The position numbers and the translations under genes are program-made. A stretch of 58,934 nucleotides of DNA from a virus. Below are positions 21,223 to 49,527 of this stretch, piece after piece. The DNA is taken from positions 1 to 58,934 of the IMG/VR virus record IMGVR_UViG_3300044643_000090; one strand, given 5' to 3'. Every line of letters begins with the position of its first letter. Position 1 is the first letter of the stretch. The notes below the pieces were generated by a model. The model was not told the origin of the DNA and searched no databases. It saw only the letters and a list, made by a program, of their open reading frames with translations.

Positions 21223-22806
21223 TTAGTAACCGAAGGTACTGTCAGCGATCTGAAAGCCAGTTCTGCCAGAGTTAGGGTCCAGATCGAATAGACCACTTCT
21301 TGGGCGAGTCATAACCCCATATCTCAGGGCATCGTACAGGTGATCTTCTGCCTTAGTGTCCACATCTTCTGGGTTAGTTTTATCTAGGGGAAGAGATGGC
21401 AGTTGAGAGATCAGGTTCTTACAAGTATTGAAGATAACCATTCTGGGTGCATCTGTGTAAGTATCGTGCTGCAAACGTCTGTGGATTTCGTTCTTACCTG
21501 CAATACGAGAACCTTTACTCCTGTCTGCAGGACGCCAGCGGCATCCCTTGAGGATCATGCGTTCAGCAATGCTAGGGCCAGTATCACCACGCTTGTGCCA
21601 GAGGGAGGAGTCAAGTACACCGTAGCGCATCTTTTCCCCAGACTCTTCTTCAAGAACTCTCTCTGCCAAATCTTCTGCAAGAACCTTGGAGACGTACAAC
21701 TCACGGTACACAATCAACTGCTCATCAGGAGCCACAGCAAACCAGAGAACACCAGTATAAGAACTGTAGCCGTAGTCAGCCGCACGAAACCTTGGCCAGC
21801 TAGTAGGGATTTCAAACGGGTCAATGACATGCAGTCTACGATTAAACTCTGGGAAAGCAGCACCCTCTGCAGTGTCCCAGTTACCTTCTAGAAGCTGCTT
21901 CCTCTGGTGCTCAGGGAGAGACAAGAGGTTGGCTTCGTACATACCATCGTCGGCCAAGTAGGGGTTATCGAAGAGGGTTGCAGGGATAAAACGTCTTTGT
22001 AGGAGAGGCTCACCCTCACGAGAATGACCCTTGGGCCACTGGAGGGTTTCACCTGTCTCCGGGTCGATAGCCCAGAAAGCTTTACCGGGAGGTGAGGGAT
22101 CAATGAAGGCTTTCTTAACCCAGTGATGTCCTGCCCCTCCGGGGTTGGTTGTAGCTCTCTGATACAGTTTTAGGCCGCTATCACGAGTTGTTCTGAGACG
22201 AGAACGCATGTAGTTCCAAGCGTAGGGACTAGACCACTGAGTAAGTTCGTCGAACCCAATCCAGTTATATGCTTGACCCTGATAGCGAGTAACGTCATCA
22301 TCTGCGTCTAGGTAGCTCATCCAGAGTGTTGCTCCAGACGGTGCTACCCAAGTCTTGTCTCTTTCTAAAAACTTAATCCCCGGAATGGCTCTGGGGTACA
22401 ACATCTTTGAAACAGAAACCAGTTCTCGAAGTTCTTCTGTAGACTTACGCACCAAGAGCATCTTGGCATGTTCGTTGTTCAGGTAGCGTACTGGGTCTGC
22501 CAACATGGCGTAAGACTTACCACCACCCGCTGCACCACCATAGAGAACCTCTTGCTCATCTGCAGACAAGAACTCTGTCTGAGGTCCGGGGTTGGGTTGG
22601 AAGATAACTTCCCTAGCCTTCTCAACATCAAACTTCGCTGGAATCGCTTGTGCGTAGGTTTTGCTCTCCGCTGGAACTACTACTACTGGTTCTGACTGCA
22701 CTTCCACCGATTTTTGCTTCAAGTCTTTCGGCTTTTTCGAGGGCCGCTTTGTATTTCTCGGCAAAGAAGCGTTGGTTTGCAGCGTCTGTCTTACGTTTGT
22801 ACTCAA
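21223..22806 (-). CDS. terL: Terminase large subunit
   Basis: Up to 527 residues. ATPase: Walker A GGAAGGGKSYAM and Walker B NWIGFDELTQW with the catalytic Glu. Nuclease: FRAADYGYSSYT supplies the first Asp, GVLDSSLW a second acidic site, and TKAEDHLYDALRYGVM the C-terminal Asp. It packages the genome into procapsids. The listed start is a TTG giving a 179-base overlap with the preceding gene. The first ~33 residues are Lys/Thr/Pro-rich and unlike a conserved domain, so a GTG at 22707 may be the true start. Confidence 0.95.
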   Translation of the reverse strand: MSTNVRQTLQTNASLPRNTKRPSKKPKDLKQKSVEVQSEPVVVVPAESKTYAQAIPAKFDVEKAREVIFQPNPGPQTEFLSADEQEVLYGGAAGGGKSYAMLADPVRYLNNEHAKMLLVRKSTEELRELVSVSKMLYPRAIPGIKFLERDKTWVAPSGATLWMSYLDADDDVTRYQGQAYNWIGFDELTQWSSPYAWNYMRSRLRTTRDSGLKLYQRATTNPGGAGHHWVKKAFIDPSPPGKAFWAIDPETGETLQWPKGHSREGEPLLQRRFIPATLFDNPYLADDGMYEANLLSLPEHQRKQLLEGNWDTAEGAAFPEFNRRLHVIDPFEIPTSWPRFRAADYGYSSYTGVLWFAVAPDEQLIVYRELYVSKVLAEDLAERVLEEESGEKMRYGVLDSSLWHKRGDTGPSIAERMILKGCRWRPADRSKGSRIAGKNEIHRRLQHDTYTDAPRMVIFNTCKNLISQLPSLPLDKTNPEDVDTKAEDHLYDALRYGVMTRPRSGLFDLDPNSGRTGFQIADSTFGY

Positions 22807-23086
22807 GCTTAATCCTCTTGTAGAGACCTACGTGAGAGATGGGTCTACCACTCTGCTCACTCAACCAAGCTGCAACTGCTCTGTAGGAGTACTTCTTGAG
22901 GTGCTTCTTTGCTTGCTCAAGGAGTTCTAACTCTTCTGGAATGGGGAGCAGTACATCAGGGTCGTTGGGGTCTTCTTTGTACCCGAAGGGCATAATCCTG
23001 CCGCTTCTGACAACAGGCTTCCACTCAAAGTGGTCACCGTGGTCGATGGGTTTTGGGAGTTTCCATTCTGTTTTGATTTTTGGCAT
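22628..23086 (-). CDS. HTH-like protein upstream of large terminase (possible small terminase or packaging regulator)
   Basis: 152 residues. The middle (KKYSYRAVAAWLSEQSGRPISH) looks like a helix-turn-helix, followed by VGLYKRIKLEYKRK and a coiled-coil helix (KYKAALEKAERLEAKIGG), then a Ser-rich tail. DNA binding plus a helical oligomerisation segment is the layout of small terminases. Its 3' end overlaps the large terminase frame. A consensus promoter lies directly before it, with only six bases between the -10 hexamer and the ATG. Confidence 0.65.
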   Translation of the reverse strand: MPKIKTEWKLPKPIDHGDHFEWKPVVRSGRIMPFGYKEDPNDPDVLLPIPEELELLEQAKKHLKKYSYRAVAAWLSEQSGRPISHVGLYKRIKLEYKRKTDAANQRFFAEKYKAALEKAERLEAKIGGSAVRTSSSSSSGEQNLRTSDSSEV

Positions 23087-23092
23087 GAGTTA

Positions 23093-23121
23093 CTTATACT
23101 ATCAACGACACAAACTGTCAA
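23093..23121 (-). promoter_or_regulatory. Consensus sigma-70 promoter before the HTH-terminase genes, probably leaderless
   Basis: Minus strand TTGACA (23116-23121), 17-base spacer, TATAAG (23093-23098). Only six bases (23087-23092) separate the -10 from the ATG at 23086, so transcription would begin at about the A of the ATG. No Shine-Dalgarno sequence is visible. Confidence 0.65.
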
Positions 23122-23480
23122 TCACTTTTCTTAGAAGGGAGAATAAAGAGTGGGACATCAGACTCCACCTTGACTTCATCCTTGGCCTTGAAACCACCAC
23201 GATCAAGCAAGTCCTTAGCTGCAGCCATCTTCTCTTTGTTGCCGAGTGCAGTAGGGTCAACAATCACTTCGTACATGCTGTATGCAGCCTTCACACCAAC
23301 ACGGGTAATGAACTTCTTGGTGAGTTCTGCAATCTCATCCTCAATGGACTCAACGATGTGCTTGGTGGAGTATGTGTCGCTGTAGCCAGCCAGCTTCTTG
23401 GCCTTAACGTAGTCACCCCGAGCCTCTTCGAAGAGGACATCAAGGAACTTCTGCTGCATCTCGGTAAGCTGTTTAGTCAT
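23118..23480 (-). CDS. Terminase small subunit-like protein
   Basis: 120 residues: MTKQLTEMQQKFLDVLFEEA and GDYVKAKKLAGYSDTYSTKH form a helix-turn-helix of the kind at the N-terminus of small terminases. AAYSMYEVIVDPTALGNKEK and MAAAKDLLDRGGFKAKDEVK follow. The tail VESDVPLFILPSKK is typical of the group. It probably recognises phage DNA and hands it to the large terminase. It overlaps the upstream gene by 4 bases. Between this and the 152-aa protein, this one has the better small-terminase pattern. Confidence 0.75.
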   Translation of the reverse strand: MTKQLTEMQQKFLDVLFEEARGDYVKAKKLAGYSDTYSTKHIVESIEDEIAELTKKFITRVGVKAAYSMYEVIVDPTALGNKEKMAAAKDLLDRGGFKAKDEVKVESDVPLFILPSKKSD

Positions 23481-25760: not shown

Positions 25761-25993
25761 TCTCTCTTACGATCTGGCTCAAAAACGTCACTCTTCCTCA
25801 GGTGACCCTCTAGGTACATGGCTCTCTCAATCCTGTCTAGGGAGTATCTTTCCCCAGTCCTCTGGAAGATGGCCTCACGAACGTAGAACACATCAGATCG
25901 GGGTATGTGAACCCTCTTAAGTCTACCTTCATCCTTGTCTGCAAGGGCATTGTAGAAGTTGGTGAGCACATCGTCGTCTGCGAAGTATTTCAT
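25751..25993 (-). CDS. First gene of the late arm, hypothetical
   Basis: 80 residues: MKYFADDDVLTNFYNALADK, then IPRSDVFYVREAIFQRTGER and RIERAMYLEGHLRKSDVFEP. Acidic N-terminus, helical. No family recognised. A sigma-70-like promoter ends six bases before its ATG, so the mRNA may be leaderless; only a weak AAGGA lies 12 bases upstream. Confidence 0.75.
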   Translation of the reverse strand: MKYFADDDVLTNFYNALADKDEGRLKRVHIPRSDVFYVREAIFQRTGERYSLDRIERAMYLEGHLRKSDVFEPDRKREWE

Positions 25994-26079: not shown

Positions 26080-26300
26080 AAAAATTACCTTAGGGTACTT
26101 GAAATTCTGTTTTTCCTTTCTACGTATATACTTTAAGAGATACATAAAGCTACTACCTTAAGCTATACCTTGTTTTTATATAATTACTTAAAGGTAATAA
26201 GTACTTAAGTATACCTTAAGGTACTCTTGAAGCTATCTCATCAGGCTTCATTATGAGATACATCAAGCTTCTTGAAGCTATACATCATGTATCTCTTAAT
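26080..26300. promoter_or_regulatory. AT-rich inverted-repeat cluster (TACCTTAAGGTA family)
   Basis: Non-coding AT-rich stretch with related short palindromes: TTACCTTAGGGTACTT near 26086, CTACCTTAAGCTATACC near 26153, TACCTTAAGGTA near 26212, and a GAGATACAT ... ATGTATCTC inverted repeat at about 26255-26296. AAGCTTCTTGAAGCT lies inside the last. TACCTTAAGGTA occurs again just before the integrase. Possible operator/arm-site array or replication origin. Confidence 0.6.
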
Positions 26301-26571
26301 GTAATATACCGCCTTCCTGTCGTTTGTCAAGAGGTCTTCTCATCTTTTTCTAGAAATATTTATACCTCCCCAAGCTCTCTACCCCCAGAATCACCCCACT
26401 CGGGAGTAACACCACGAACATAGCTAAAAGAGCCTCATAGAGAGCCGCCAGATGGGCATCTCACCTTTTTCTAGGTCACCATAGCCAAGACAAGAGATCG
26501 CTCTGTAAGGGCCTTTCTAGAGCCTCTACAACTATCTCCCATTTTTGACCAACTGGTAAAGAAATACATGT

Positions 26572-26602
26572 TGTTAACCACTGAGGCTTTTTCTGGTTAA
26601 CA
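26572..26602. repeat. 9-bp inverted repeat TGTTAACCA / TGGTTAACA
   Basis: TGTTAACCA (26572-26580), 13-base spacer, TGGTTAACA (26594-26602), perfect arms. TGTTAACCA also occurs once at 33008-33016 inside the promoter before the tRNA genes. Could be an operator or recombination core. Confidence 0.55.
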
Positions 26603-26718
26603 GAACTACAAAAATCCCCCCGCTGTCATTGTGGGTATACGTTATCAGGCACCCCCCCGGTGGCCCATGCCCGCCCCCCTCTGCCTGCTATGCCTAGGTA
26701 GGTAGGCGCATTATGCAA

Positions 26719-26880
26719 GGCGTGATGTATATCATGATGCCTAACATGTTGATTCCAAAAGGAATCCCAGAGAATGTAACTTTCCTGACTCTGCTAAAGC
26801 AGAAAGAAATTGGTCAGTATTTCTTACCAATCGGCAGACGGCAAAGAGGATGCACCCTAAGGGAACCTTAGACTTGCCGA
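26719..26880. other. Consecutive hairpins: candidate structured RNA or origin
   Basis: Stems in order: GGCGTGATG/CATGATGCC (26719-26741, one mismatch, one wobble), GATTCC-AAAA-GGAATC (26751-26766), TCTGC-TAAA-GCAGA (26790-26803), ATTGGT/ACCAAT (26809-26831), and TCGGCA/TGCCGA (26831-26880) enclosing CTAAGG-GAA-CCTTAG (26857-26871). No gene covers them. Confidence 0.5.
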
Positions 26881-26988
26881 AAAGACCAGCTGCCAAACCC
26901 TAGACTTTTTGTTGCCCGCGCTCAGGCATTATGCTCAGCCCCGCTCAGGAAAAGTTTCGCCGTCTTTACCCTTTAGGGTAACTCATTA

Positions 26989-27001
26989 TCGGACCGTCCG
27001 A
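26989..27001 (+). promoter_or_regulatory. Palindromic control element, copy 1
   Basis: TCGGAC-C-GTCCGA preceded by CATTA and followed by GGATAGA. AGGATAG (27001-27007) also pairs with CTATCCT (27020-27026). It leads the first early gene, 131 bases before its ATG. Confidence 0.75.
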
Positions 27002-27041
27002 GGATAGATTTTCTCGACCCTATCCTACGGATAAAAAAGCC

Positions 27042-27074
27042 TTGACAACCCCGATTCGATCCGGTCCTTATAGA
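27042..27074 (+). promoter_or_regulatory. Possible promoter upstream of the first early gene
   Basis: A perfect TTGACA (27042-27047) is followed 19-20 bases later by CTTATAG. The spacing is longer than usual for sigma-70, so strength is doubtful or an activator may be needed; copy 1 of the palindrome lies 41 bases upstream. Confidence 0.35.
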
Positions 27075-27132: not shown

Positions 27133-27717
27133 ATGTCGAATATTGCTAACGTAGTTATCGCCGCTGATGCCACCGTCAAGGTCGGCAAGAAATCCTTCAC
27201 CATTGCTGAAGCAATCAAACATGCTTCCGCCGTCTACGACACCATGTGGCTGATGCAAGAGCAGATGCTCGACCACTATCGTGAAATCGGAACGATTTTG
27301 CTGGGGCTTCAGGCTCTGTTTGCCGATAACCGTAAGGCCTTCGGCCAGTATCTTGCCGGGACCGATCTTGGTTCCATGTCCTTTCAGGACCGTTCTGATG
27401 CAATGTTCCTTGCGGCAAACTGGACTAAGGTCCAGAAACTGAACAAAGACGGTGCCCTTGACACCCTTGGTGTTTCGGCAATCCGGAAGCGTATCAAAGC
27501 TGCCGAAGGCAAAGCCTCGAACGGTGCCGGAAAGCGCAAGATGGACCAGAATGTTTCCCCTAAAGGGGAAGGTGAGGCTGCACCGAAGGCCGAAGCCAAA
27601 GCACCGAAGGTGCAGAATGAAACCGAATTGGCTGATCTTGTCTGGACCCTTATCGCAGATAATGGCTTGGATTTCGCCGCCTTCACCAAGGCACTGATGG
27701 CCAAGCGTAAAAAGTAA
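27133..27717 (+). CDS. First early gene, hypothetical
   Basis: 194 residues. The N-terminal ~120 are helical (SFTIAEAIKHASAVYDTMWL, LLGLQALFADNRKAFGQYLA). The middle is an Ala/Lys/Glu linker (EGEAAPKAEAKAPKVQ) and the last ~40 form another helical unit (LADLVWTLIADNGLDFAAFT). GGAG precedes the ATG. The layout recalls DUF3102-like phage/plasmid proteins, but I cannot assign it. It is alone between palindrome copies 1 and 2 and ends in a strong terminator, so it is a single-gene unit, possibly a regulator. Confidence 0.85.
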   Translation: MSNIANVVIAADATVKVGKKSFTIAEAIKHASAVYDTMWLMQEQMLDHYREIGTILLGLQALFADNRKAFGQYLAGTDLGSMSFQDRSDAMFLAANWTKVQKLNKDGALDTLGVSAIRKRIKAAEGKASNGAGKRKMDQNVSPKGEGEAAPKAEAKAPKVQNETELADLVWTLIADNGLDFAAFTKALMAKRKK

Positions 27718-27775: not shown

Positions 27776-27813
27776 GCATTTCGTTTCCCCTTTAGGGGAT
27801 GGCCAAGGTAATC

Positions 27814-27826
27814 TCGGACGGTCCGA
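27814..27826 (+). promoter_or_regulatory. Palindromic control element, copy 2
   Basis: TAATC-TCGGACGGTCCGA-GGATAGG. A TTCCCC-TTTA-GGGGAA hairpin (27834-27849) lies between it and the AAGGAGAG ribosome site of the next gene. Confidence 0.8.
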
Positions 27827-27864
27827 GGATAGGTTCCCCTTTAGGGGAAAAGGAGAGAAAAACC

Positions 27865-27951: not shown

Positions 27952-28210
27952 TGTGTGGCATGAGCGTGACCACAAGCCCGACAGGGTGAGCAAGCGTAAG
28001 CGTATGGCGCAACGTGCGGACAAGTGGTGGCGCAGCGTGTGGCATGTGCAGATGTGTATGTCCCCGCATGGGTGCAACGATGTGGACCTAGGTTCTGCCA
28101 AACCATTGACAGTCGATGTGGGCCGTGCTTTTCTAAAGGCTCAGTCACCGCAACAAACCAAATCTAATCTCGGACGGTCCGAGGATACAAACGATGGAGA
28201 TACACGATGA
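27935..28210 (+). CDS. Doubtful basic ORF before palindrome copy 3
   Basis: About 91 residues from ATG 27935 (other ATGs at 27938 and 27941 and a GTG at 27923 are in frame). Basic and Trp/His-rich (HERDHKPDRVSKRKRMAQRA, DKWWRSVWHVQMCM). The last ~15 codons run through palindrome copy 3 and the next ribosome site, which is unusual for a real gene. Overlaps the microprotein's end. Either a real gene or an open frame by chance. Confidence 0.35.
   Translation: MMMRCDVWHERDHKPDRVSKRKRMAQRADKWWRSVWHVQMCMSPHGCNDVDLGSAKPLTVDVGRAFLKAQSPQQTKSNLGRSEDTNDGDTR
28170..28182 (+). promoter_or_regulatory. Palindromic control element, copy 3
   Basis: CTAATC-TCGGACGGTCCGA-GGATACA, 24 bases before the ATG at 28207, with GATGGAGATACACG as leader. 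Confidence 0.8.
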
Positions 28211-28873: not shown

Positions 28874-28887
28874 ACTGAAATCTAATA

Positions 28888-28900
28888 TCGGACGGTCCGA
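28888..28900 (+). promoter_or_regulatory. Palindromic control element, copy 4
   Basis: TCTAATA-TCGGACGGTCCGA-GATTAA, 20 bases before the ATG at 28921, with AAAGGAGAAAC as the ribosome site. Confidence 0.8.
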
Positions 28901-28920
28901 GATTAACCCAAAGGAGAAAC

Positions 28921-30235: not shown

Positions 30236-30244
30236 CACTTAATA

Positions 30245-30257
30245 TCGGACGGTCCGA
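30245..30257 (+). promoter_or_regulatory. Palindromic control element, copy 5
   Basis: TTAATA-TCGGACGGTCCGA-GAATAGA, 20 bases before the ATG at 30278, with ATGGAGAGACGC as leader. Last copy found on the map. Confidence 0.8.
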
Positions 30258-30277
30258 GAATAGAATGGAGAGACGCA

Positions 30278-33039: not shown

Positions 33040-33116
33040 CTACCCGTAGCTCAGTTGGAGAGAGCAAGTGCCTTCTAAGCACTGGGTCGGGCGTTCGAGT
33101 CGCTCCGGGTAGGCCA
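33040..33116 (+). tRNA. tRNA-Arg (anticodon TCT)
   Basis: 77 bases, cloverleaf by eye: acceptor CTACCCG/CGGGTAG, D-arm GCTC/GAGC, anticodon stem AGTGC/GCACT with loop CTTCTAA, T-arm GGGCG-TTCGAGT-CGCTC, discriminator G and encoded CCA. Reads AGA codons. Lies 1 base from the next tRNA. Confidence 0.92.
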
Positions 33117-33117
33117 T

Positions 33118-33193
33118 GCTGGTGTAGCTCAGTTGGTAGAGCAGTTGCCTTGTAAGCATCAGGCCGGGGGTTCGAGTCCCTCCACCAGCACCA
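33118..33193 (+). tRNA. tRNA-Thr (anticodon TGT)
   Basis: 76 bases: acceptor GCTGGTG/CACCAGC, D-arm GCTC/GAGC, anticodon stem GTTGC/GCATC (one mismatch), loop CTTGTAA, T-arm GGGGG-TTCGAGT-CCCTC (one G-T pair), encoded CCA. Reads ACA. Confidence 0.9.
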
Positions 33194-33209: not shown

Positions 33210-33392
33210 ATGGGTTATGAACCAGACGATTGGGACTACATACTGTCCACAGTGTGTAATGCCTACTTCTCAGACTTGAGGTTCGAGGAACTGGTTGATT
33301 GTGTTATGCTATCCTCGAACAAGGAAGAACTTGACGCCGCTGTAACAGCAACCATCAGACTATGGGAGATAGTCAACCATGAAGAGCAATAG
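33210..33392 (+). CDS. Small acidic protein before RIIA
   Basis: 60 residues: MGYEPDDWDYILSTVCNAYF, FEELVDCVMLSSNKEELDAA. Acidic, helical. It overlaps the RIIA-like gene by 14 bases and so is translationally linked to it. Function unknown. Confidence 0.7.
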   Translation: MGYEPDDWDYILSTVCNAYFSDLRFEELVDCVMLSSNKEELDAAVTATIRLWEIVNHEEQ

Positions 33393-35328
33393 CACACTGC
33401 GTGTCGTAGAGACCAACAGCCAGACGACCAAGGACTTCACCATCCAAGCATCAGGCAAGATGTTCCACATGGTGATCTCTGGCCTCTACTCAGACAAGCC
33501 CAAGTCCATCACCCGTGAAATCTGGTCCAATGCCTTTGATGCACACGCTATGGTGGGCAAGGAGACTGTCCCATTCGAGGTGACTTTCCCTACTGCCATC
33601 ACACCCACCTTCACCTGTCGTGACTTCGGGCCGGGGATTGCACACGATGACATGGAGGGTTTCTACACTGTGCTGGGTCACTCCACCAAGGAGAATACCA
33701 ACAAGGCTGTAGGTAAGTGGGGCGTTGGGCGTATGTCCCCCATGTCTTACACTGATACCTTCTCTGTCGTTTCCCGTCACAAGGGCAGGGTCAGCTACTA
33801 TGCGGTTCAACTCGGTCCTGACGGATCGCCACAACTCCATGTCCTCGCTGAGCCTCAACCCACCAACGATCCTGATGGTCTTGAGGTATCCTTCCCTGTG
33901 AAGCGTCAGGACATTCAACAGTTCCAGACCGCAGCCAATGTTATCTCTGTGGGCTTCGATGCTCCACCTCTTGTCACCAACTCCAAGGAGAAGTCTTTCA
34001 GCCCCCTCAAGAAGCTGTACGAGGGTAAGGACTACTACCTGTACGAACATGAGTCGATGTCTGGTGCCTTTGCTCAGATGGGCTGTGTCCTCTACCCTAT
34101 TCCATACGAGTACCTCCCAAAGACCTCGTGGTCCTCACGCTGCATCGTCTACAAGTTTGACATTGGTGATCTGGAAGTCACTGCATCCCGTGAAGCCCTG
34201 TCCTTCGGTCCCAATGATCCTACTGCTGGCAGCATCAGGGCCAAGACTGAGGTAGTTGAACAGCAACTGTTTGATGCACTACAGGCTGAGGTTGACGCAC
34301 AGCCCAAGCTGTTCCTTGCAGCCAAGCTGGCACCCAGACTGCATAGGTTCATTCGTAGTGGTGAGTTCAAGTGGAAGGGTATGCAAATCCCGAAGGTGTG
34401 GAACCTTGCGAAATACCAGAAGGTCTCACTGCACTGTGGCTACAAGGGCTACCGTCAGAAGACTGCGGGGTTTGGTATTGACAGAGACCTGAGTGTGACC
34501 GAGGACCACACCATCTTTATTCAGGACATATCAGACAAGAAGGGCTGTGCTCGTGCTGCAACACGTATCTGTAGTGCTATTGACAGCTACAAGTACTACG
34601 TCTGGGTCAGGGCTGATCTGACAGACAAAGAACAGAAGGCCGAGGTTGATGCCCTGATTGCAGAGCTTGACTTCCCTGTGCTGTATGTGAAGGACTTGCA
34701 GGATGATGGCCCCAAGCAGTCTGGTCCTCGTGCAAAGGTCATGGTGTATCGCCTAACCCACAACGACAAGGAGAAGTGGGACATGGAGGATGCTACCTTC
34801 CAAGCTGGTGGCTACTACGTTCCCATGACCAACAATGATTACCCCCGCATGTTGCACAGGGTTATCCCCTTCATCAAAGAGAAGTTTAGCATCACAGACA
34901 TCGTGATGGTGCCTAAGACCCTCTGGAATAAGTTTGAAGGTAACAGCGAGTGGAAGCTGCTAGAGCCTGCACTGAAAGAGGCTGTCATTAAGGAGGAAGC
35001 CAATGCCCGCCTCGCACTGGGTAAGCAGTACAACATCTACCCCATGAACCACTTCGGTGTACTTGAACTTGCTGGTGGCCCTGTGGGAGAGTTTGCCAAG
35101 AAGGTGAATAACCCTGCCCCCAACACCTACAGGGGTATTGACAAGTCCTCTTGGAATGCTGTACTGGGTAGCTACGGAAAAGATGAGATTGGCAACTCGG
35201 TGGCTGAGAGTGAGCATAAAGCTATCCTTACCAAGTACCCACTGTTGAAGATTTTTCTTGATAACCGTAGGTTGGTTCCAGAGTTCATCCAGTACATCCA
35301 ACTGATCGACAACGCAGCAAAGGAGTAA
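33379..35328 (+). CDS. rIIA: RIIA-like GHKL ATPase
   Basis: 649 residues. Bergerat ATP-binding fold: N-box SITREIWSNAFDAH (Glu, Asn, Asp), G1 box RDFGPGI and G2 box KWGVGRMSP, as in T4 rIIA, Hsp90 and MutL. The remaining ~450 residues match the long C-terminal part of RIIA-type phage proteins in size only. In T4, RIIA with RIIB protects infected cells against RexAB exclusion and affects lysis timing. The gene right after it is RIIB-like, as in T4. Activity here is inferred from family. Confidence 0.88.
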   Translation: MKSNSTLRVVETNSQTTKDFTIQASGKMFHMVISGLYSDKPKSITREIWSNAFDAHAMVGKETVPFEVTFPTAITPTFTCRDFGPGIAHDDMEGFYTVLGHSTKENTNKAVGKWGVGRMSPMSYTDTFSVVSRHKGRVSYYAVQLGPDGSPQLHVLAEPQPTNDPDGLEVSFPVKRQDIQQFQTAANVISVGFDAPPLVTNSKEKSFSPLKKLYEGKDYYLYEHESMSGAFAQMGCVLYPIPYEYLPKTSWSSRCIVYKFDIGDLEVTASREALSFGPNDPTAGSIRAKTEVVEQQLFDALQAEVDAQPKLFLAAKLAPRLHRFIRSGEFKWKGMQIPKVWNLAKYQKVSLHCGYKGYRQKTAGFGIDRDLSVTEDHTIFIQDISDKKGCARAATRICSAIDSYKYYVWVRADLTDKEQKAEVDALIAELDFPVLYVKDLQDDGPKQSGPRAKVMVYRLTHNDKEKWDMEDATFQAGGYYVPMTNNDYPRMLHRVIPFIKEKFSITDIVMVPKTLWNKFEGNSEWKLLEPALKEAVIKEEANARLALGKQYNIYPMNHFGVLELAGGPVGEFAKKVNNPAPNTYRGIDKSSWNAVLGSYGKDEIGNSVAESEHKAILTKYPLLKIFLDNRRLVPEFIQYIQLIDNAAKE

Positions 35329-36398: not shown

Positions 36399-36508
36399 GT
36401 ATTATTACTCTTTAAGAAGTAAAAATACCTTAAGGTATACATAAAGAGATAGAGGGTAGCACAAGTCTTTCTTCATGGCAAGTGCTACCTTCAACAACAG
36501 AGGACGAC
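36399..36508 (+). promoter_or_regulatory. Integrase upstream control region
   Basis: AT-rich gap with CCTTAAGTATTATTACTC, then ATACCTTAAGGTATACATAA (TACCTTAAGGTA core, about 36426-36437) and AAGAGATAG, the same elements as in 26080-26300. Next comes an 8-bp inverted repeat GGTAGCAC (36455-36462) / GTGCTACC (36482-36489) just before the ribosome site. Confidence 0.6.
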
Positions 36509-37594
36509 ATGAAATACACTCGTAAAGTCAAGAACAAGGATGGGTCTGTCGTTCACAGGTTCGTCCCACCACCAGAGGTTTCTAAGGCTGGTGTCGTTAA
36601 GTCTCAGACCTTCAAGGACGGTAGGGCTGCACGCTACGAAGTCCCTCGTTTGATAGAAAAGGTTGATGCTTACCGAAGGGGGGAGATCAAGGAGGGGAAC
36701 GTAGGACCAAGCTCCAAGATCATCCATGTCATCAACTACTACCTGTCGTCCAAGCAGTTTGCCTCTCTCGCTAACAGGTCTCAGATCAAGTACGAGGCAG
36801 ACTTAAAGAGTGTTTCTCGTTCAGACCTTGGCCTAATCCCAATTAACAAACTGACTGCGAAGATATGCAAGGAAGCCTACGAGGATTGGGTTCAAGCACA
36901 CTCGGTTGCAAGGGCCAATGAGAGGGCGAGGATACTCTCCATCGTACTCAACTTCGCCCGATCTCTTGATCTTATCAACGACAACCCTATGTCCAAGGTG
37001 AAGAAGCTGAGGCACGAACCCAAGACACCGATCTGGACGAGGGATCAGGTTGAAGTCTTCCTCGACACTGCCTTCACCAAGTTCGAGTGGAGAAACGTAG
37101 GTCTTCTGGTGATGATGTGCTACGAGTGGGCGCAAAGACCTACAGACATCTGCCACCTCAAGTGGGACAACCTCGACCTCGACAATGCAAGGATGAAGGT
37201 CAAGCAATCCAAGAGAGGTGCAGAGGTAGAAATGCCCATTGAGGAACCCCTGCTGACCATGCTCAAGGAACAGAAAGAGGATTGGGGTTTCCAGAAGTAC
37301 GTGGTGCCACACCACAGGGCCAGCGATAATGCCTATGTTCCCTTGAAACCTGAATCGTTTGGACCTATACTTCGCCAGATAAAGCAGGCATGTGGCTTGC
37401 CAGAAGAGTTGAAGATTGGACACCTGAGAAAGACTGCCATCACAGAGTTTGTAGCAGCAGGAGTTGACAGCACAGGCATCATGCAGGTAACAGGACACAA
37501 GAACATCGCCAGCCTCAACCCATACATGAGGCACACATACGAGGGTGCTAAGACAGCACAGAACGTCAGGAAAGGGTACAAGGATGGAGCATAA
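36509..37594 (+). CDS. int: Tyrosine recombinase (integrase)
   Basis: 361 residues from ATG 36509 with AGAGGA upstream (an in-frame ATG at 36482 is inside the inverted repeat). N-terminal arm/core-binding domain with YEADLKSVSRSDLGLIPINK. The catalytic domain has WAQRPTDICHLKWDNLDL (Arg I), KQSKRGAEVEMPI (Lys), GHLRKTAITEF (His-x-x-Arg), TGHKNIASLNPYMRHT (His and Tyr nucleophile). It would integrate the phage into the host chromosome. No excisionase is recognised next to it and no tRNA fragment typical of attP is visible nearby. Confidence 0.93.
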   Translation: MKYTRKVKNKDGSVVHRFVPPPEVSKAGVVKSQTFKDGRAARYEVPRLIEKVDAYRRGEIKEGNVGPSSKIIHVINYYLSSKQFASLANRSQIKYEADLKSVSRSDLGLIPINKLTAKICKEAYEDWVQAHSVARANERARILSIVLNFARSLDLINDNPMSKVKKLRHEPKTPIWTRDQVEVFLDTAFTKFEWRNVGLLVMMCYEWAQRPTDICHLKWDNLDLDNARMKVKQSKRGAEVEMPIEEPLLTMLKEQKEDWGFQKYVVPHHRASDNAYVPLKPESFGPILRQIKQACGLPEELKIGHLRKTAITEFVAAGVDSTGIMQVTGHKNIASLNPYMRHTYEGAKTAQNVRKGYKDGA

Positions 37595-46840: not shown

Positions 46841-47219
46841 GTGGAAAGACACAGGACTAGACTACTTTGAACAAGAGAGGCACTACACCCCTTCCGCTAT
46901 GGTGAGGGAGTTCTCTAAAGTTCTGGATCAAAAACCTGACGTGGCCCTGTACCAGAGATTGATCTGTGAGGAGTACGAGGAGTGGTGCAAGGAGTTGCCA
47001 CACACCGTAAAGGACTTGAAGGAGCTTGCAGACCTTGTGTATGTGATCTACGGCTATGCCCATGCCGCTGGCTACAATCTGGACGAGGCTGTAGAGCGTG
47101 TGCATGACAACAATCTCGGTCGTTGTGTGCAACCTGATGGGACCGTCAAGCGAAGGGAGGATGGGAAGATTATAAAGAACCCTGACTACCCTGCGGTCTA
47201 CTTGAAGGATTTGATTTGA
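46833..47219 (+). CDS. MazG-like NTP pyrophosphohydrolase
   Basis: 128 residues. All-alpha NTP-PPase pattern: ICEEYEEWCKELPH (E-x2-E-x2-E-like) and LKELADLVYVIYGYAHAAGY (E-x2-D), then VERVHDNNLGRCVQPDGTVK, a conserved end of phage MazG proteins. Hydrolyses non-canonical or alarmone-type nucleotides in relatives; here it may tune nucleotide pools together with thyX and nrdJ. Confidence 0.85.
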   Translation: MAKWKDTGLDYFEQERHYTPSAMVREFSKVLDQKPDVALYQRLICEEYEEWCKELPHTVKDLKELADLVYVIYGYAHAAGYNLDEAVERVHDNNLGRCVQPDGTVKRREDGKIIKNPDYPAVYLKDLI

Positions 47220-47383
47220 TGGCAAGCTTCATCTACCTCTTGACAACTCTCTTCATTGGACTAAAACTACTCGGTTCGATCACATGGTCTTGGTGGTGGG
47301 TTCTTAGCCCTCTTTGGATTGGTATCCCTAGTATTATCCTTGTTGCCTACTTGGCGGCACTCGCTGCGAGGAGCCTCAAATGA
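47219..47383 (+). CDS. 54-aa membrane protein
   Basis: ATG overlaps the MazG stop (TGATG). MASFIYLLTTLFIGLKLLGS, ITWSWWWVLSPLWIGIPSII, LVAYLAALAARSLK: two membrane segments. The WSWWWVLxPLW motif is widespread in tiny phage and bacterial membrane proteins. Role unknown. Confidence 0.8.
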   Translation: MASFIYLLTTLFIGLKLLGSITWSWWWVLSPLWIGIPSIILVAYLAALAARSLK

Positions 47384-47544
47384 CAGTGCAAGAGCTTATA
47401 GACAAGCTGCAGAAAGTGCAGGACAAGGGGGTTCCAGTTGTATTGGTTGACTGGTCCATCCAGAACCCACTGACAGCCAAGCATGACCTCAGCACAAACC
47501 GTATCGTGGTGCAAGCACATCGCGTTGCAATCATAATGAGCTAG
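47380..47544 (+). CDS. 54-aa protein before nrdJ
   Basis: ATG 47380 overlaps the previous TGA. MTVQELIDKLQKVQDKGVPV, VLVDWSIQNPLTAKHD and VVQAHRVAIIMS. MTVQELIxxL start is common in small phage proteins. Function unknown. Confidence 0.75.
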   Translation: MTVQELIDKLQKVQDKGVPVVLVDWSIQNPLTAKHDLSTNRIVVQAHRVAIIMS

Positions 47545-47580
47545 ATCGTGATCGAACTGGCCTCAAAAGAAAGTGAAAAA

Positions 47581-49527
47581 ATGAGTAACCACCTACCTAC
47601 TGACTACCAAGCATTCATTCACACATCACGCTATGCTCGTTGGCTCGAAGAGTTTATGCGGCGTGAGGGTTGGTTTGAGACCGTCTCTCGCTACATGACC
47701 AATGTTGTCGTCAAGAAAATCCGTGACGAGATCGTACTGGATGAAATCGAAGAGGCTATCCTTGGTCTTGAGATTATGCCTTCGATGCGGGCTGTGATGA
47801 CTGCTGGTCCTGCCTTGGAGCGCGATAACACGGCTGGCTACAACTGCTCCTACCTGCCTGTGGACGACCCCAAATCCTTTGACGAGGCTATGTTCATCCT
47901 TCTGTGTGGCACTGGTGTTGGCTTCTCTGTTGAGCGTCAATACATTAGTAAGCTGCCAGAGGTTCCTGAGCAAATGTTTACCTCGGAGGACGTGATCGTG
48001 GTCCACGACAGCAAAGAGGGTTGGGCTAAGTCTCTGCGTAAGCTGATTGCTATGCTCTATGCAGGGGAAATCCCTAAGTGGGACGTGTCTAAGGTTCGTC
48101 CTGCTGGCGCTAAACTCAAGACCTTTGGTGGTCGTGCATCTGGTCCCGCCCCTCTGGTGGAATTGTTCCAGTACACGATTGAGAAGTTCAAGGGTGCTGC
48201 TGGTCGTAAGTTGTCTTCGATTGAGTGCCACGACATCATGTGTAAGATCGGTGAAGTTGTTGTGGTAGGCGGTGTTCGTCGCTCTGCAATGATCTCTTTG
48301 TCGAACCTGTCTGATGATCGTATGCGCCACGCTAAGTCAGGTATGTGGTGGGAAGGTAATGCTCAACGTGCTTTGGCTAACAACTCTGTGGCCTACACTG
48401 AGAAGCCTGACATGGAAACCTTCATGCGTGAGTGGCTCTCTCTGGTGGAAAGCAAGTCTGGTGAGCGAGGTATCTTCTCTCGTCAGGCATCTAAGAAACA
48501 AGCTGCAAAGAATGGTCGTCGTGATGCTAACCAAGACTTTGGCACTAACCCGTGCAGTGAAATCATTCTTCGCCCGTACCAGTTCTGTAATCTCACGGAA
48601 GTCGTGGTCCGAGCTACGGATACACTTGAGGACTTGGAGCGGAAAGTAAAGCTGGCTACGATCCTTGGCACTATCCAATCGACGTATACTCACTTCCCCT
48701 ATCTGCGTAAGATTTGGCAGAAGAACACTGAGGAAGAGCGGCTGTTGGGTGTGTCGTTGACGGGTATCATGGATCATGAAGCCTTGTCTGGTGCTATGGA
48801 TAGGGATGCTGGTATTGCATACTCGTTCTCTGGCAGCGAAGATATGAACCTAGATCAAGTTTTGGAGCATCTGAAAAATGTCGCTGTTACTACTAATGCT
48901 GAGTGGGCTAATCATCTTGGTATTCCTGCTAGTACGGCCATTACTTGTGTCAAACCAAGCGGAACTGTTAGCCAGCTTGTGGATTCCGCTTCTGGTATTC
49001 ATGCTCGTCACAGCCAGTATTATATCCGCACCGTAAGGGGAGATAACAAAGACCCTCTGACGCAGCTTATGAAGGATCAGGGTATTCCGAGTGAGCCATG
49101 TGTGATTAAGCCTGAGACTACCACAGTCTTTAGCTTCCCACAGAAGTCTCCCGAAGGTGCTATTACCCGTAACGACATGACGGCTATCGAACAGTTGGAG
49201 TTGTGGTTGATCTATCAGCGTCACTGGTGTGAGCATAAGCCTTCTATCACGGTGACTGTTCGTGATAATGAGTGGATGGAAGTTGGTGCTTGGGTCTATA
49301 AGTACTTCGATGAAGTATCTGGTGTGTCTTTCTTGCCGCACTCTGACCACAGCTACCAACAGGCACCCTATCAGGAGATCAACCAACGGGAGTATGAAGA
49401 GTTGCTTGCTACCATGCCACCGAAGATTGATTGGACTAAGCTGAGCGACTACGAGAAAGAAGACACTTCCAAAGGGACTCAAACCTTTGCCTGTGTTGGT
49501 TCTTGTGAGATCGTTGACCTGACTTAA
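47581..49527 (+). CDS. nrdJ: Adenosylcobalamin-dependent (class II) ribonucleotide reductase, monomeric type
   Basis: 648 residues from ATG 47581; a GTG at 47548 is also in frame. NCSYLPVDDPKSFDEAMFIL, LCGTGVGFSVERQY, TNPCSEIILRPYQFCNLTEV (active-site Cys, Asn, Glu region) and TCVKPSGTVSQLVDSASGIH are RNR barrel motifs. The C-terminal FACVGSCEIVDLT holds the Cys pair used for re-reduction. It makes deoxynucleotides using B12, without oxygen or a small subunit. Slightly shorter than the bacterial enzyme. Confidence 0.93.
   Translation: MSNHLPTDYQAFIHTSRYARWLEEFMRREGWFETVSRYMTNVVVKKIRDEIVLDEIEEAILGLEIMPSMRAVMTAGPALERDNTAGYNCSYLPVDDPKSFDEAMFILLCGTGVGFSVERQYISKLPEVPEQMFTSEDVIVVHDSKEGWAKSLRKLIAMLYAGEIPKWDVSKVRPAGAKLKTFGGRASGPAPLVELFQYTIEKFKGAAGRKLSSIECHDIMCKIGEVVVVGGVRRSAMISLSNLSDDRMRHAKSGMWWEGNAQRALANNSVAYTEKPDMETFMREWLSLVESKSGERGIFSRQASKKQAAKNGRRDANQDFGTNPCSEIILRPYQFCNLTEVVVRATDTLEDLERKVKLATILGTIQSTYTHFPYLRKIWQKNTEEERLLGVSLTGIMDHEALSGAMDRDAGIAYSFSGSEDMNLDQVLEHLKNVAVTTNAEWANHLGIPASTAITCVKPSGTVSQLVDSASGIHARHSQYYIRTVRGDNKDPLTQLMKDQGIPSEPCVIKPETTTVFSFPQKSPEGAITRNDMTAIEQLELWLIYQRHWCEHKPSITVTVRDNEWMEVGAWVYKYFDEVSGVSFLPHSDHSYQQAPYQEINQREYEELLATMPPKIDWTKLSDYEKEDTSKGTQTFACVGSCEIVDLT

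Follow-up and report, generated by a model that had tools for sequence, protein, structure and literature searches.

The intergenic region that separates the packaging and replication genes of the viral genome analyzed here probably holds the pac site of an HMO-2011-type podophage that packages by the headful mechanism. The window, meaning the whole stretch of DNA analyzed, is a 58,934-base virus record from IMG/VR and derives from a marine relative of phage HMO-2011. The putative site is a pac-like element of about 90 nt (26593..26680, + strand), identified by a profile match, that is conserved over 32 distinct sequences and follows the large terminase subunit (TerL); most likely, it adds a further example to a known class of packing signals. 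HMO-2011-type phages have been described as widespread and dominant oceanic phages (PMC9038755). In the literature searched, no packaging signal sequence is described for phages of this type, and only the position of pac in phiM6 is given. A defined element would allow genome starts to be set consistently and the packaging mode to be predicted from sequence, and would make recognition of pac by the small terminase subunit (TerS) testable across a family with swapped packaging and replication modules.

The element lies in a 1.1-kb gap that also contains a series of hairpins (26719-26880), and the placement of these hairpins between divergent arms by an earlier sequence-only reading is confirmed. 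The leftward arm begins at 25993 and carries the terminase, portal, and structural genes, and the rightward arm begins at 27133 and encodes a primase-helicase, DNA polymerase, ribonucleotide reductase, and ThyX. Within the leftward arm, TerL is encoded at 21223..22806 and a candidate TerS at 23118..23480 (PHROG 2538, E 1.2e-4), both on the - strand. The N-terminal domain of TerL has its own ORF (22628..23086, - strand), which overlaps TerL in another frame. HMO-2011 also has this separate ORF and many relatives likewise give matches in two overlapping pieces, while phiM6, CRP-3, and CRP-212 each have one fused TerL ORF of about 635 aa; the split is possibly due to a programmed frameshift or a split gene. 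The TerL of the window matches the HMO-2011-type phages CRP-13, CRP-2, CRP-9, CRP-603, CRP-1, and HMO-2011, whereas the phages matched by its DNA polymerase are different ones (PA11, CW02, CRP-6, and phiM6). As side observations on the gene content, tRNA-Arg(TCT) and tRNA-Thr(TGT) followed by an rIIA-like gene are found at 33040-33193 and 33379-35328, and an integrase-like gene at 36482-37594. In a related contig of 59,108 bases (L002), the DNA polymerase gene at 46991-49314 is split into two parts, covering residues 3-443 and 454-624, that are about 485 bases apart, which suggests an inserted element.

Identification of the element started from homologues of the right-flank gene in six contigs, the intergenic gaps of which were aligned. 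Conservation in this alignment is strongest to the left of the hairpins and not within them. A pattern scan of viral contigs then returned 27 loci, and a profile was refined over three rounds. The element of the window reads ...GTTAACA...CTGTCATT..GTATACGTATACG.ACACCCCCC...TGGCCCATGCCC and is made up of a GTTAACA box, an A-run, a C-run, CTGTCATT, an alternating GTATAC core, CCCCCC, and TGGCCCATGCCC; the consensus of the 32 sequences is tgTgGTTaaCa....aaaa..cccc.c.cTGtcatt..g.gTATAc..ataCg.a.acCCCCC...TGGCcCatGCCC. The profile finds the element in CRP-1, -2, -3, -9, -13, -207, -212, -235, -345, and -603, in HMO-2011 and ctYwJ313, and in more than 20 metagenome contigs, with one confident match in the window genome and one per locus examined. 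The match is partial in CRP-738 and weak (4.8-9.0 bits) in the three rhizobiophages phiM6, RHph_N3_13, and RHph_N3_19. No convincing element was found in the pelagiphages HTVC115P and HTVC033P or in Aeromonas phage MQM1. Among approximately 85,000 host genomes, the element pattern has only three matches, two of them weak ones in Meiothermus and the third in a MAG contig that lacks the flanking genes of the window.

The distribution of the element follows that of the terminase rather than that of the replication genes. Although element records were collected by DNA pattern and profile alone, 24 of the 25 contain both the TerL of the window and its N-terminal domain, and the one remaining record is a contig that breaks off 4.8 kb from the element, on the side of the terminase. 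The DNA polymerase of the window occurs in 7 of these 25 records and in 2 of the 15 named phages; some of the metagenome records without it are fragments, but this polymerase is also absent from 13 of the named phages. Across the 25 records, the element does not track the replication module. Phages CRP-9 and CRP-13, in which replication genes of cobavirus type are reported to be combined with packaging genes of HMO-2011 type (PMC8528129), both carry the element. The orientation of the element relative to TerL is constant in all records checked, including phiM6, in which both are inverted; its distance from TerS is variable (0.5-8 kb). A gap of 770-860 nt within a one-way block of genes holds the element in CRP-3 and CRP-212, away from the divergence, indicating that it is not tied to divergent promoters. 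Eight element contigs end less than 0.9 kb to the right of the element and, apart from two wrap-around contigs, none does so to the left, an asymmetry that is weak evidence because the selection of viral contigs favors the terminase side.

The link to packaging comes from the HMO-2011-like Sinorhizobium phage phiM6, for which PhageTerm predicts a terminally redundant genome and the predicted pac cleavage was set as position 1 of the record (PMC6256558). The TerL of phiM6 is 57% identical to that of the window, and its element occupies nt 52-95 of the record in the expected orientation, and 500 shuffles of the gap never reached its score. For the two Rhizobium phages RHph_N3_13 and RHph_N3_19, one of 500 shuffles scores as well in each case, and both records start inside the element. 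Alignment places phiM6 position 1 at approximately 26726 of the window and the starts of the two other rhizobiophage records at approximately 26636-26640, which together outline a predicted packaging-initiation cleavage zone at 26636..26740. Transferring the element-to-cut distance of phiM6, the first cut in the window phage would be expected near 26726, at the left edge of the hairpins. Headful cuts are known to scatter. Counting against the pac reading are the weakness of the three rhizobiophage matches, the variable distance from TerS, and the fact that the deposited HMO-2011 and CRP phage records begin elsewhere than at the element.

The resemblance to the phiM6 pac region extends to the element, its orientation, the terminase family, and a pac cut about 50 nt away as predicted by PhageTerm. 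The phiM6 element has, however, diverged in sequence and lies 0.5 kb from the terminase genes, compared with 3.2 kb in the window; in addition, pac was reported for phiM6 as a genome start, and the announcement describes no recognition sequence. Likeness to the headful pac sites of P22-type phages and SPP1 consists of a unique site, expected recognition by TerS, and headful packaging in one direction. The pac site of P22 is short and lies within the small-subunit gene, whereas the element described here is about 90 nt long, lies between genes, and can be as far as 8 kb from TerS. The candidate TerS of the window phage (23118-23480) is predicted to bind the element at 26593-26680, after which TerL would make the first cut on the replicated concatemer about 50 nt to the right of it. 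DNA would then be pumped leftward, taking in the packaging and structural arm, until a headful is reached, and the hairpins would lie on the side left behind by the first cut.

It is very unlikely that the element is instead a cos site producing fixed cohesive ends or lies at the edge of fixed direct terminal repeats. Its C-rich, partly symmetric core upstream of the terminase genes would suit such a site, and two contigs of about 54.7 kb break at the element, but the overlaps between contigs are an exact, k-mer-like 127 nt and strain-variant, in contrast to fixed ends. The L007/L115 contig start was considered as a physical terminus and rejected because of an exact, assembly-like overlap of 127 nt. 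The report of phiM6 as terminally redundant with a pac site (PMC6256558) also argues against fixed ends, as does the likening of TerL of this type to the TerL of the circularly permuted HK639. No direct terminal repeats were found in the records of phiM6, CRP-1, CRP-9, HTVC115P, and HTVC033P.

To the right of the pac-like element, the hairpins described in the sequence-only reading are all present: at least five stems lie within about 160 bases (26719-26880), and no ORF of at least 60 aa covers them, the neighboring ORFs ending at 26161 and starting at 26973. On the + strand, these are GGCGTGATG(TATAT)CATGATGCC (GGCGT...ATGCC; 26719..26741), GATTCC(AAAA)GGAATC (26751..26766), TCTGC(TAAA)GCAGA (26790..26803), ATTGGT...ACCAAT (26809..26831), and an outer TCGGCA/TGCCGA stem (26831-26836 and 26875-26880) enclosing the inner hairpin CTAAGG(GAA)CCTTAG (26857-26871). 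The feature is wider than was initially described, as additional stems occur at 26692-26707, GCCTA(GGTAGG)TAGGC on the + strand, and at 26966-27033, and a palindrome, GCATTATGC, is found at 26708..26716 with a second copy at 26926-26934. The sequence-only reading was right to treat the region as a special control region outside the genes, and its structure exceeds chance. The + strand of 26719-26880 has a predicted RNA fold of -47 kcal/mol (z -3.13; 1 of 200 shuffles as good), the - strand has a z of -1.84 (11 of 200), and 26683-26905 contains five perfect hairpins compared with 0.9 in shuffles, a number reached in none of 300 shuffles. The sequences of the hairpins differ from one another. 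A genome-wide family of hairpins with a loop of 4 and a stem of 6 was rejected, since 13 were found against 16 expected, and scans for exact patterns of the described hairpins produced only a few or unrelated matches (one at an unrelated locus, L133).

Comparison with relatives indicates that the hairpins, although real, are limited to certain lineages. In the three closest homologues, which are all that align reliably, 6 of 53 consensus pairs show compensatory change. The outcome that the sequence-only reading had named as refuting, a lack of compensatory changes together with folding energy no better than in shuffles, was checked for and did not occur, so the structure stands. ATTGGT...ACCAAT is kept in L002 and L003; L003 has lost the outer arm of the 26719..26741 hairpin, and in the hairpin enclosed by the TCGGCA/TGCCGA stem it has CTGATG/CATCAG instead of CTAAGG/CCTTAG, with two compensatory pairs. 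L004 and L005 have different stems in similar places, such that GATTCC(AAAA)GGAATC corresponds to GATATCC(CTT)GGATATC in L004, and TCTGC(TAAA)GCAGA to TTGTGC(TTTA)GCACAA in L004 and CAGAGGT(TTT)ACCTCTG in L005. An excess of perfect hairpins to the right of the element is also seen in L004, L005, L006, L119, L097, and HMO-2011, the last of which has 13 in 503 nt (1666-2168 of the record) compared with 2.3 expected; two small ORFs annotated in this stretch of HMO-2011 may be spurious. In CRP-9 and CRP-13, palindromic GTTTAAnnTTAAAC iterons are spaced 31-33 nt apart, and L107 has a 14-nt tandem iteron. CRP-1, -2, -3, -207, -212, -345, and -603 carry the element with no hairpin excess beside it. 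The idea that the hairpins move with the divergent promoters was rejected, as there is no excess at that location in CRP-3, CRP-212, CRP-235, and CRP-738. The array is probably a lineage-specific control array, for replication or early genes, located beside pac and outside its recognition sequence. A more specific proposal, in which a hairpin array at the cut that is conserved in structure and free in sequence, acting as DNA or as a small RNA, helps the concatemer to switch from replication to packaging, is quite improbable.

The remaining alternatives concern in part the hairpin array alone and are not exclusive of a pac role for the element. Tentatively, the array, with or without the element, may be a replication origin at which the palindromes bind an initiator or expose primase sites. 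As the sequence-only reading had anticipated for an origin, the cumulative GC-skew minimum (27243) falls within 0.4 kb of the hairpins, but it coincides with the switch of gene direction and consequently does not discriminate an origin. The CRP-9/CRP-13 and L107 iterons and the HMO-2011 hairpins are lineage-specific, origin-like arrays at the same place, and such palindrome or repeat arrays beside the element recall known iteron or palindrome-array origins. Unlike in those origins, the hairpins of the window differ mutually, and the element does not track the replication module. The element tracks terminase and not polymerase type and matches the phiM6 pac, which argues against an origin at the element itself, and the seven CRP phages without a hairpin excess beside the element weaken the case further. 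An origin thus remains a candidate role for the array, and an origin and pac may possibly lie side by side.

A structured non-coding RNA transcribed rightward across 26719-26880, also suggested by the sequence-only reading, is unlikely. The excess of structure (z -3.1 to -3.8 on the + strand), the six compensatory pairs, and the replaced stems in L004 and L005 are in its favor, and this part of the suggestion holds. Compensatory changes are also expected of DNA palindromes, however, so six pairs in three homologues fit either DNA or RNA, and three alignable close homologues are a small sample for this comparison. In most relatives, both strands fold about equally with no clear strand preference, as palindromic DNA would, and many relatives carry the element with no hairpin excess. 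An Rfam search of the hairpin region at gathering and permissive thresholds returned nothing credible. Furthermore, the region lies between two outward-facing candidate promoters. One is a promoter-like TTGACA-16-TATATT facing the packaging arm (26303..26330, - strand), which matches 11 of 12 consensus positions by pattern only. The other is TTGACA at 27042..27047 (+ strand), a candidate rightward early promoter that is invariant in 6 of 6 homologues, although its 20-nt spacing to TTATAG is not canonical.

Also unlikely is a purely transcriptional role, in which the hairpins would be operators or other regulatory palindromes that control divergent early and late transcription and take no part in packaging or replication. 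Repeated sites of this kind do occur in the early right arm, where the palindrome TCGGACCGTCCGA (TCGGACNGTCCGA) is present in five copies, one of them in the gap (26989-27001) and the others at 27813-27831, 28169-28187, 28887-28905, and 30244-30262. The TCGGACCGTCCGA pattern has eight matches on both strands compared with none in shuffles, and this palindrome is probably an operator. The hairpins of the window, in contrast to repeated operator sites, differ in sequence, and CRP-3 and CRP-212 retain the element at a place other than the divergence. Sites of the TTTGTGATCACA type recur as palindromes in CRP-13 (2577-2588, 2621-2632, and 2652-2663), and the same motif was seen by eye in CRP-1 and in one further contig (L118).
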